A DNA stretch of 32,590 nt. Origin: Chloroflexaceae bacterium. Lineage in GTDB: Bacteria; Chloroflexota; Chloroflexia; Chloroflexales; Chloroflexaceae. The stretch lies in assembly GCA_012032475.1 (NCBI GenBank), contig JAAUSY010000027.1, positions 1 to 32,590 of the forward strand, read 5' to 3'. The notes beneath the pieces are model-generated. The model was not told the origin of the DNA and did no database searches. It was given only the letters and a program-made list of their open reading frames with translations. Positions within the stretch are counted from its first letter, which is position 1. Each line of letters starts with the position of its first letter. Shown one piece after another: positions 30,145 through 32,590 of the stretch. A program made the translations under genes and the position numbers.

Positions 30145-30378
30145 TCACCTGAAGAATTTGCGGTTTTTCTCGATGTAGCTTTTCCACTCGTCGGGGACCG
30201 AGTCGGCCACGAAGATAGCCGTGACGGGGCACTCCGGCTCACACGCGCCGCAGTCAATGCACTCATCGGGATTGATGTAGTACTGGTCCTCTCCCTCGTA
30301 GATGCAGTCTACCGGGCAAACCGCCACGCACGAGGCGTCTTTCACTCCAATGCACGGTTCACAAATGACATAAGCCAT
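30145..30378 (-). CDS. 7Fe-type ferredoxin (copy 1)
   Basis: ATG 30378 with AAGGAG 9 bases upstream gives 77 residues. Cys9-x7-Cys17-x3-Cys21-x3-Cys25 and Cys40-x2-Cys43-x2-Cys46-x3-Cys50 are the pattern of FdxA-like 7Fe (one 3Fe-4S, one 4Fe-4S) ferredoxins, with an extra Cys6. The tail [14 protein letters not shown] is shared with the second copy. It would carry electrons in the cytoplasm; partners are unknown. A longer frame to 30438 has no SD and a basic, unlikely N-terminus. It has its own extended -10 promoter. Confidence 0.93.
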
Positions 30379-30437
30379 ATCATGGTGCTCCTTCCTGATA
30401 TCCTTATCCTTATACCTGCTTACCTTGCCTTCAATCA

Positions 30438-30446
30438 ATGATACCA
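30438..30446 (-). promoter_or_regulatory. Extended -10 promoter of ferredoxin copy 1
   Basis: On the minus strand TGG precedes TATCAT (30443-30438), about 60 bases before the ferredoxin ATG. It lies at the end of the terminator of the upstream ferredoxin, so the two genes are probably expressed separately. Confidence 0.5.
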
Positions 30447-30501
30447 GAGAACAGAGAGAGCACCGAGGAGCCGCTCAGAGATGAGGTTCTTCCCTCGGTG
30501 C
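30445..30501 (-). terminator. Terminator after ferredoxin copy 2
   Basis: On the minus strand a perfect 9-bp stem GCACCGAGG/CCTCGGTGC (30501-30493 and 30468-30460) with a 24-base loop is followed by TCTCTCTGTTCTC. The T content is moderate, and a long gap (75 bases) separates it from the ferredoxin stop. Confidence 0.6.
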
Positions 30502-30576
30502 CTGCTAATTGCTCCGAAACTTCGGAAGTTGTCTGGTCCTTCATCGGAGGAACCGGTTGGTCCCTCCCGGCGCTAT

Positions 30577-30813
30577 CTAGCCCTCGAAAAACTTCCGGTT
30601 CTTTTCAATGAAGCTCTGCCATTTTCCTGGGACATCGCTTTCCGGGAAGATGGCCTCGACGGGGCACTCATACTGGCATGCGCCGCAGTCCATACACTCG
30701 TCGGGGTTGATGTAGTACTGGTCATCCCCTTCGTAGATGCAGTCCGACGGACAAACTGCCACACACGCGGCATCCTTTACCCCGACACATGGTTCGCAAA
30801 TGACATTCGCCAT
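30577..30813 (-). CDS. 7Fe-type ferredoxin (copy 2)
   Basis: ATG 30813 with AAGGAG 11 bases upstream gives 78 residues. The Cys pattern is identical to copy 1, and about three quarters of residues match, including EPC(I/V)[15 protein letters not shown] and the IEKNRKFF tail. The two are tandem paralogues. Differences concentrate around the second cluster (CMDCGACQYECPVEA instead of [15 protein letters not shown]), which could tune potential or partner choice. A separate promoter and terminator surround it. The Crp/Fnr gene lies upstream. Confidence 0.93.
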   Translation of the reverse strand: MANVICEPCVGVKDAACVAVCPSDCIYEGDDQYYINPDECMDCGACQYECPVEAIFPESDVPGKWQSFIEKNRKFFEG

Positions 30814-30874
30814 GCTCTGAAATACTCCTTCATAGCAACTAAAATAACGACACGTTCTCTTGTGACCTTTCCTG

Positions 30875-30883
30875 ACTATAGCA
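30875..30883 (-). promoter_or_regulatory. Extended -10 promoter of ferredoxin copy 2
   Basis: On the minus strand TGC precedes TATAGT (30880-30875), about 62 bases before the ATG. A weak -35 (TAGAAA) lies 18 bases upstream. Confidence 0.5.
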
Positions 30884-30938
30884 TGGGGTCTTTCGAAATT
30901 TCTACTACCAAAGTCCCATAGCGCTGTGTGCCCCACCC

Positions 30939-30962
30939 ACGGGTTGCTCCGGAGCAACCCGT
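30939..30962. repeat. Perfect 24-bp palindrome after the Crp/Fnr gene
   Basis: ACGGGTTGCTCC is followed directly by its reverse complement, 6 bases after the Crp/Fnr stop. As RNA it folds into a 10-bp stem with a CCGG loop. No T-run follows on either strand, so it is either a terminator of unusual type or a DNA-binding site upstream of the ferredoxin promoter. Confidence 0.7.
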
Positions 30963-30968
30963 CGCTCG

Positions 30969-31646
30969 TCAGGGGAAGGGTTCGCGGTTCCCGCTGACGA
31001 TGCGGGCCAACCCTTCGGCGTTGAGCACAATGATACGCCCACGCTCCAGGCGCACGAGTTTTTCCTCGGCAAAGCGGCGCAGCGCCCGCCCGGCAATCTC
31101 GCGCACGGTTCCGGTGCGTTCGGCAAGCTCCTGGTGGGTGATTTCGGCGGTGCCTTCTCTGGCCTCCGTGAGCAGTTGCCGCGCCAGTCGTTCACGGACC
31201 GAGCGAAAGGCCAGGTCCTCGACCAGGGTCACCAGTTCGCGCAGTTGCTCGGCCATCTCGCGCAGGGCGGCCAGGGCCAGGTCAGGGTGCTGGCATATCA
31301 GGTCCAGCACATCCTGACGGGGGAGCAAGAGACATTCGACCGGGCTTCTGGCCTGGGCGGTAGCGTGGTTGGGCTGACCATCGAAGATGGGCCCGCTGTT
31401 GAAGTTTGCTCCCGGCCCGACCATTTCCAACATCTGTTCGCGACCATCCTCTGCGGTGCAGGTCAGGCGCACCCGACCGTGCAGCACAATAAACAATCCT
31501 GGGGGTTGTTCGCCCTCGAACATGATATATTCGCCGGGGCGGAACGCACACCGGCGCACCCGGCGGCTGATATCTCTCAGCGTTGGTTCGTCCAGGGAGG
31601 CAAAGAGTGGGATAGCGCGGAGTTCTCGTTCGTCGAAGGGTTTCAT
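30969..31646 (-). CDS. Crp/Fnr family transcriptional regulator
   Basis: The 225-residue protein has an N-terminal cyclic-nucleotide-type effector domain (about residues 8-125, with FRPGEYIMFEGEQPPGLFIV and a degenerate PBC-like segment GANFNSGPIFDGQ), a dimerisation helix, and a winged helix-turn-helix (about 160-215) with ITHQELAERTGTVREIAGRA. The canonical cAMP-binding residues of Crp (GE-x6-RSA) are not evident, and no Fnr-type N-terminal Cys cluster is present, so the ligand is unknown. The TATAAT box lies 7 bases before the ATG, suggesting a leaderless transcript. It is upstream of the ferredoxin pair on the same strand. Confidence 0.93.
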   Translation of the reverse strand: MKPFDERELRAIPLFASLDEPTLRDISRRVRRCAFRPGEYIMFEGEQPPGLFIVLHGRVRLTCTAEDGREQMLEMVGPGANFNSGPIFDGQPNHATAQARSPVECLLLPRQDVLDLICQHPDLALAALREMAEQLRELVTLVEDLAFRSVRERLARQLLTEAREGTAEITHQELAERTGTVREIAGRALRRFAEEKLVRLERGRIIVLNAEGLARIVSGNREPFP

Positions 31647-31659: not shown

Positions 31660-31690
31660 CAGGATTTACCCGGTGGGCCTCGTCGGAAGC

Positions 31691-31900
31691 CTACACGTCC
31701 CGCTCATCGCGCATGAGGTCGTCCAGACTCACTTCGAAGTATTCGGCTATCTGGAGCAGCAGGTCGGCGTGGGGCTTCTTCTGTCCCTGTTCTAGTCTGT
31801 GGGTATGGGTCTTGCTGAACCCCAGAACCTCTGCAAGTTCCTGAAGTGACATACCCCGGCGCTGACGGAGTATCCGCAGCTTCTCCCCAAAACGCTTCAT
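31691..31900 (-). CDS. XRE-family helix-turn-helix regulator (copy 1)
   Basis: The 69-residue protein is a single Cro/C1-type HTH domain: RILRQRRGMSLQELAEVLGF then SKTHTHRLEQGQKKP. The C-terminal DLLLQIAEYFEVSLDDLMRD completes the five-helix fold. Such small proteins repress their own operon or serve as antitoxins. The ATG lies 11 bases after the stop of copy 2 and lacks a good SD, suggesting translational coupling. A mosaic relation with copy 2 is described in the findings. No toxin gene is visible next to it. Confidence 0.93.
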   Translation of the reverse strand: MKRFGEKLRILRQRRGMSLQELAEVLGFSKTHTHRLEQGQKKPHADLLLQIAEYFEVSLDDLMRDERDV

Positions 31901-31911
31901 TTCACGAAAGC

Positions 31912-32121
31912 CTACACGTCCCGCTCATCGCGCATGAGGTCGTCCAGGCTCACTTCGAAGTATTCGGCTATCTGGAGCAGCAGGTCGGCGTGGGGCTTCT
32001 TCTTACCAAGTTCCAGTTTGTTCAGGTGAGCTTTGTCAAAGCCGAACACCTGGCTGAGTTCTCGTAACGACATTCCTCGCTGCTCACGCAGCTTCCGCAG
32101 CTTCTCCCCAAAACGCTTCAC
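31912..32121 (-). CDS. XRE-family helix-turn-helix regulator (copy 2)
   Basis: From GTG 32121 the protein has 69 residues, aligned end to end with copy 1; a TTG at 32139 would add six residues. The HTH reads KLREQRGMSLRELSQVFGFD then KAHLNKLELGKKKP, followed by the same C-terminal half as copy 1. The weak SD (AGGTG) is about 7 bases upstream of the GTG. It is first in the two-gene operon and lies behind a structured leader with an extended -10 promoter. Autorepression through the dyads in that leader is possible. Confidence 0.9.
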   Translation of the reverse strand: MKRFGEKLRKLREQRGMSLRELSQVFGFDKAHLNKLELGKKKPHADLLLQIAEYFEVSLDDLMRDERDV

Positions 32122-32132
32122 CAGGACACCTG

Positions 32133-32161
32133 TTGACAAAGAGGGTAATCTATGGTACCCT
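32133..32161 (+). promoter_or_regulatory. Plus-strand promoter candidate (TTGACA-17-TACCCT)
   Basis: A consensus TTGACA (32133-32138), a 17-base spacer and TACCCT (32156-32161) preceded by TGG. It points into the structured region 32168-32236 and away from the XRE genes. Any product would be a non-coding RNA or a long leader of the gene at 32412. Confidence 0.45.
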
Positions 32162-32167
32162 TACACC

Positions 32168-32185
32168 GTAGACCATGAAGTCTAC
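32168..32185. promoter_or_regulatory. Operator-like dyad GTAGAC-6-GTCTAC
   Basis: A perfect 6-bp inverted repeat (32168-32173 and 32180-32185) with a 6-base centre lies upstream of the XRE genes. Its size and place fit a binding site for a small XRE dimer, but it would also fold as RNA in the leader. Confidence 0.4.
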
Positions 32186-32198
32186 AAAATATTCCGGC

Positions 32199-32227
32199 GG
32201 CTCCCCGTGTTCCGGTCACGGGGAGCC
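32199..32227. repeat. Strong 11-bp hairpin in the XRE leader
   Basis: GGCTCCCCGTG (32199-32209) and CACGGGGAGCC (32217-32227) form a perfect stem with a 7-base loop. A 12-base palindrome GCCAGTACTGGC (32225-32236) partly overlaps it, so two folds are mutually exclusive at their junction. On the minus strand the stem is followed by GCCGGAATATTTTG, a poor terminator tail. Confidence 0.65.
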
Positions 32228-32411: not shown

Positions 32412-32590
32412 GTGACGATTTTCTCGATACCAGAGCGTGTCGCGTGGCTGGAAGACCTGGTAGCTGAGACAACGCGCAACATTGATCGCCTGATTGACCA
32501 GACGAAAGAGACCGACCGCCGTATGGCCGAGACCGACCGCCGTATGGCCGAGACCGACCGCCGTATGGCCGAGACCGACCGTCGGTTGGC
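32412..32590 (+). CDS. Coiled-coil protein with ETDRRMA heptads, partial at right edge
   Basis: GTG 32412 (GAGG about 10 bases upstream) opens a frame reading VTIFSIPERVAWLEDLVAET, then TRNIDRLIDQTKETDRRMA, followed by further ETDRRMA heptads to the end of the window. The heptads make a charged coiled coil. In Chloroflexota and cyanobacteria such N-termini often lead into a PD-(D/E)XK-like domain (DUF3782-type), but that part is outside the window. It has its own extended -10 promoter and lies beside the XRE pair. Confidence 0.75.
   Translation, partial: MTIFSIPERVAWLEDLVAETTRNIDRLIDQTKETDRRMAETDRRMAETDRRMAETDRRL
32508..32590. repeat. 21-nt in-frame tandem repeat (ETDRRMA)
   Basis: Units start at 32508, 32529, 32550 and 32571. 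The first three are identical at every base; the fourth has changed by its end and is cut by the window edge. The perfect identity indicates recent expansion. Confidence 0.95.

Follow-up and report, generated by a model that had tools for sequence, protein, structure and literature searches.

Segmental concerted evolution by intragenomic gene conversion is known from the homA/homB and babA/babB genes of H. pylori, in which a 3′ segment is homogenised while another segment keeps diverging (PMC2795765), and gene conversion has been described between the adjacent PE_PGRS17 and PE_PGRS18 genes of Mycobacterium tuberculosis (PMC1762029). Here we describe two adjacent genes, A and B, in a window of 32,590 nucleotides from a Chloroflexaceae bacterium (contig JAAUSY010000027.1) that resemble the first case in their homogenised 3′ segment (PMC2795765) and the second in the local conversion of neighbouring paralogues that we propose for them (PMC1762029). 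There are also clear differences. The hom and bab genes encode long outer-membrane proteins with a variable middle, whereas the family of A and B consists of 70-codon tandem transcription factors in which the boundary separates the DNA-reading half from the half formed by helices 4 and 5; PE_PGRS17/18 is a polymorphism within one species and, unlike A and B, lacks a preserved functional core set against homogenised ends. The process itself is known in bacterial paralogues; what is new, as far as the open-licence literature that we searched goes, is its repeated action in minimal helix-turn-helix (HTH) regulators, and in that literature we found no direct precedent for conversion in tandem HTH regulators.

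In fold and length the A and B proteins resemble the controller (C) proteins of restriction-modification (R-M) systems (C.AhdI, 1y7y; C.BclI, 2b5a), SinR, CylR2 and the 434 and P22 repressors (Foldseek TM about 0.7-0.8). They are encoded beside a Crp-type regulator and ferredoxins, however, and no R-M gene was recognised in the window, where the contig stops about 470 bp upstream of B.

Two small regulators with identical ends and different cores

Genes A and B each have 70 codons for 69 amino acids and lie 11 bp apart (Table 1). A single Cro/C1-type HTH domain is found by Pfam in both products (HTH_31, HTH_3 and HTH_19 over the Pfam cutoffs in A; HTH_3 and HTH_19 in B), and the AlphaFold2 model of A, with a mean pLDDT of 96, contains five helices at residues 4-14, 19-26, 30-37, 45-55 and 59-63, the third of which is the predicted recognition helix by its place in the fold. 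Together with the PDB matches, this identifies A and B as XRE (Cro/C1-type HTH) proteins with an HTH_3-type five-helix domain; the nearest solved folds, from Foldseek and profile matches, include CapH, DdrO, C.AhdI, C.BclI and SinR. We infer that both act as autoregulated repressors. Two inverted repeats upstream of B are candidate operators that, with arms of 6 bp, may have arisen by chance. Also upstream of B is a perfect 11-bp hairpin, GGCTCCCCGTG/CACGGGGAGCC, a possible terminator. An open reading frame that continues past the contig end contains ETDRRMA in tandem, and this repetition may account for the contig ending at that point. On the other side, A and B are followed by a Crp/Fnr-type regulator gene and two ferredoxin genes, the latter assigned from the translations of their reading frames.

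Table 1. Positions of features in the window
Feature	Position	Strand	Basis or description
XRE gene A	31900..31691	-	ATG start; ORF, Pfam, AlphaFold2 model
XRE gene B	32121..31912	-	GTG start, alternatively TTG at 32139; ORF, Pfam
Shared 27-nt 5′ block in A	31873..31899	-	pairwise comparison
Shared 27-nt 5′ block in B	32094..32120	-	pairwise comparison
Diverged core of A	31783..31872	-	codons 10-40, with the last part of helix 1, helix 2 and the predicted recognition helix (30-37)
Diverged core of B	32004..32093	-	codon comparison
Shared tail tract in A	31687..31782	-	last 30 codons and 4 bp beyond the stop; 95 of 96 nt as in B
Shared tail tract in B	31908..32003	-	1 mismatch in 96 nt relative to A
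Two inverted repeats, AGGGTA-8-TACCCT and GTAGAC-6-GTCTAC	32142..32185		upstream of B; candidate operators
Perfect 11-bp hairpin	32199-32227		upstream of B; possible terminator
ORF with tandem ETDRRMA repeat	32508-32590	+	runs off contig end
Crp/Fnr-type regulator gene	30969-31646
Two tandem ferredoxin genes	30145-30957	-	ORF translations

Comparison of the two genes reveals three segments. The first is a run of 27 identical nt that opens with base 2 of the start codon and takes in all of codons 2-9. Over codons 10-40 the same codon is used only at positions 12, 17, 21 and 37; 13 codons are synonymous but different and 14 change the amino acid, so that 17 of the 31 residues are the same. Codons 41-70 are identical save for a silent AGT/AGC difference at codon 58, and the identity ends 4 nt beyond the stop, bar a few more matching bases. 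The sequence-only reading had given 24 identical bases at the 5′ end, 90 bases with one silent change at the 3′ end, and between them 31 codons with about four in common and divergence even at synonymous positions; the ends prove slightly longer, at 27 and 96 nt, and the description of the middle holds exactly. On the structural model, the junction of core and tail lies in the loop between the recognition helix and helix 4, and the tail comprises the loop after the recognition helix, helices 4 and 5 and the C-terminus.

The contrast holds at synonymous sites alone. Among positions with a common amino acid in A and B (M and W excluded), the codon is the same at 3/16 in the core, at 27/28 in the tail (Fisher p=1.4e-7 for core versus tail) and at 8/8 in the 5′ block (p=2e-4 for core versus 5′ block). 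None of 100,000 random redistributions of the 41 differences over sites produced 92 consecutive nt with one mismatch or none, and a MaxChi2-type test places the breakpoint at codon 40 (p=0.0005, the floor of 2,000 shuffles). The 5′ block is also unusual, because identity over codons 2-9 is found in 0 of 3,382 pairs whose members come from different arrays or loci. As a control, the two tandem ferredoxin genes of the window, 74% identical in DNA, have no identical block. A and B thus display two marks of segmental conversion: near-identity confined to a tract, synonymous sites included, and a significant breakpoint between diverged and identical sequence.

These data bear on the idea that a recent duplication was followed by rapid diversification of the core, through positive selection or targeted mutation. 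The predicted recognition helix sits in the core, and a change of specificity would be selected. However, the synonymous codons of the core are as different as those of unrelated family members, which selection on the protein cannot bring about, and orthologue-like pairs have similar rates in core and tail. The synonymous-site comparison leads us to reject a hypervariable core, and we consider this history extremely improbable.

Shared tails in neighbouring genes of other arrays

The family to which A and B belong is patchily distributed. In the host genome (4.6 Mb in 310 contigs) a permissive search returned 22 matches, including arrays on contigs C257 and C109; family members occur in 20 of 41 Chloroflexaceae genomes at E<=1e-12 and in 11 of 400 genomes of the phylum at E<=1e-20, with many copies in the Anaerolineales HSG24 and HSG25 and single copies in two Leptolyngbya-type cyanobacteria. 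A search of plasmids gave distant relatives only, all below 60% identity. A profile of eight paralogues had no sufficiently conserved stretch for a scan of genome contigs, for which a single protein served as the query.

A survey of XRE genes in the genome and its relatives, one of the checks proposed in the sequence-only reading, found shared tails with different cores well beyond the window: the pattern is present in 7 of the 11 tandem arrays examined, namely those of the window, C257 and C109 in the host genome and G014 C159, G008 C49, G425 C4 and G425 C40 in other Chloroflexota. Genes 3, 4 and 5 of C257 have a block of tail and spacer of 216 bp that is 88-94% identical, with homology extending about 150 bp into the spacer, and cores that are about 50% identical. 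In C109, genes 1 and 2 have about 68 bp in common, with one mismatch and one inserted G; this G, in a T/G run inside the common tail, shifts the frame of gene 2 (L054:5835-6054, +). The tails of G014 C159 are shared among four genes. In G024 C322 the 5′ start and the spacer are shared and the tail only partly so, and a significant mosaic is absent from 3 of the 11 arrays (G015 C175, G425 C199 and G016 C308).

The breakpoint test, another of the proposed checks, is significant in five arrays, where 8 of 21 same-array pairs reach the floor of the single-breakpoint test (p=0.0005). The breakpoints are spread over codons 33-54, and this spread argues against one fixed recombination site. A cassette/shufflon or diversity-generating system would have a fixed site with a dedicated recombinase or reverse transcriptase next to it; breakpoints that vary in this way do not point to one, and no recombinase was recognised among the few array neighbours examined.

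The excess of tail identity is found between neighbours. Within arrays, codon agreement is 0.37 in the core (background 0.32-0.35) and 0.70 in the tail (background 0.37-0.41). Mean core/tail identity is 0.59/0.82 in arrays, 0.54/0.61 between different loci of the same genome and 0.51/0.59 between genomes, and tails at least 85% identical were seen in 9/19 same-array pairs and about 1/1,414 other pairs. Sharing of tails between dispersed copies of one genome was rejected, with 0/220 same-genome pairs at that level. Because the excess is restricted to array neighbours, homogenisation appears to need adjacency, as expected for local conversion, and local conversion of the ends is favoured over import of a core.

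Two other explanations were weighed against this pattern. If a nucleotide-level constraint such as RNA structure or an overlapping signal held the tail identical, tails would be near-invariant, as they are inside arrays; the tails of different arrays, however, including those of the same genome, are at background in their fraction of same codons (0.37-0.41). This comparison between arrays refutes the explanation, to which we give practically no weight. The second is that the identical ends are an assembly collapse or chimaera, an objection already raised in the sequence-only reading. The window is indeed a draft contig of a genome in 310 contigs, and contigs elsewhere are broken at repeats of this sort, L093 for instance ending within a copy. 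Against this, the tails of A and B can be told apart at the silent site and again soon beyond the stop, as can their outer flanks; the pattern recurs in independent assemblies and in other genera; and repeats of about 96 bp should fall within the usual read length. An artefact of this kind is therefore highly unlikely.

We conclude that A and B are probably old tandem paralogues whose ends were recently overwritten by short-tract local gene conversion, with their cores kept different. Of the two origins offered in the sequence-only reading, conversion of the flanks between old paralogues is thus the one supported, by recurrence, by breakpoints in five arrays and by restriction to neighbours; a cassette-like exchange of the core, discussed below, is less favoured.

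Whether tails or cores were copied

Several arrays indicate which segment moved. In G008 C49 each core groups with that of L107, a gene of another genus (G017), rather than with its neighbour's (bootstrap 0.9985 and 0.97), and the two tails are nearer to each other than to the tail of L107 (bootstrap 1.0 and 0.996). The first gene and L107 have diverged equally in core and tail (0.78 and 0.79), so the core is not fast. On these sequences, the tail in G008 C49 appears to have been copied after the split of the genera. C257 has a like conflict: the genes closest to its cores lie on different contigs or in different genomes. In both arrays, then, the paralogues are closer to each other than to their orthologues inside the tract and not outside it. 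Uniform divergence along the gene in relatives, which the sequence-only reading had named as evidence against the mosaic, is approached in orthologous single-copy pairs, where core and tail are near even (0.86/0.89 and 0.78/0.79); in these it indicates that the core is not simply fast.

A gene in G425 C40 (L158:1435-1710, -; Anaerolineales HSG24) carries its own complete tail and after it, in frame, 79 bp that duplicate the tail of the neighbouring gene. The extra copy is identical to the last 22-25 residues of the neighbour and is joined at a 9-bp microhomology, TTGGAATTG. To judge from the sequence, this gene is a direct fossil of a tail copied without its core.

These observations weigh on the alternative that a recent whole-gene tandem duplication produced A and B and that recombination, with its anchors in the conserved 5′ end and around codons 40-45, then gave one of them the core of a diverged donor. 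Both ends of A and B are identical, not the tail alone, and the shared sequence spans the start codon to just beyond the stop, like a 221-bp duplication unit. However, no donor core was found in the genome, where no core matches that of A at more than 63%; the cores of C257 and G008 are those of ordinary old paralogues with relatives elsewhere, and it is the tails that are anomalous; the tail was copied alone in G425 C40; and most other arrays lack a shared 5′ block. For A and B we hold an exchanged core to be unlikely.

In the case of A and B, neither core is significantly nearer to any gene elsewhere than to its partner's core (bootstrap values of 0.21 or lower), and it is from saturation at synonymous sites, not from topology, that we take their split to be old. 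That the same process acted on them as in G008 C49, C257 and G425 C40 is suggested by analogy together with this saturation.

A possible mechanism and its consequences

The most likely mechanism is non-reciprocal short-tract recombination between neighbours, which would overwrite the ends of paralogues that had long stood in tandem, or else a switch of template from one neighbour to the other at short homologies. The separate 5′ block of A and B would require a second tract or a second event. Tracts covering the core might seldom start, the cores being too diverged for pairing, a self-reinforcing situation that would need no selection. Alternatively, conversions covering the core might be lost to selection, since the two regulators would then read the same operator. 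Conversion of the tail would be tolerated, helices 4 and 5 forming the dimerisation side in related regulators of the 434 and C-protein type. Each of the two forces, rare starts or loss by selection, would leave the cores different and the ends similar, and the data fit both.

From the fold, A and B may dimerise through the tail, which would give them a common dimerisation face. Among C proteins the size of this interface varies, from 710 square angstroms in C.AhdI to 1040 in C.Esp1396I, and in C.Csp231I extra C-terminal helices do most of the dimerisation work (PMC3115060). One could imagine the arrays as combinatorial regulators, in which conversion is kept for the common face of helices 4 and 5, heterodimers act on hybrid operators and different tails insulate one array from another; we think this decidedly unlikely.

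Through conversion of this kind, minimal transcription factors encoded in tandem would be able to swap half a protein at once and so keep distinct DNA-reading parts on a common scaffold. The arrays would then be natural half-swapped regulators in which specificity and dimerisation are separable for testing, and whole-gene XRE trees from such arrays would mix two histories.

The surroundings of the arrays vary. The four tandem XRE genes of G014 C159 (L092:530-3503) adjoin genes for a BglI/SfiI-like restriction endonuclease and an N6/N4 DNA methylase, and these regulators may act as C proteins there. In G425 C199 two tandem XRE genes lie upstream of an HsdM-type methylase gene (L159:1770-4039). 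The remaining arrays sit near unrelated genes, with no evident common target.

Two variants of the gene layout were also seen. Proteins of 215-248 residues (L058:2537-2998 and L059:2211-2675) have two family HTH domains in a single reading frame, resembling a fusion of tandem genes; inspection by eye found no homogenised tails in these two. In G024 C510 (L166:1533-1966) an XRE gene is seemingly split, with residues 1-36 and 30-69 encoded about 200 bp apart, which suggests a small insertion.
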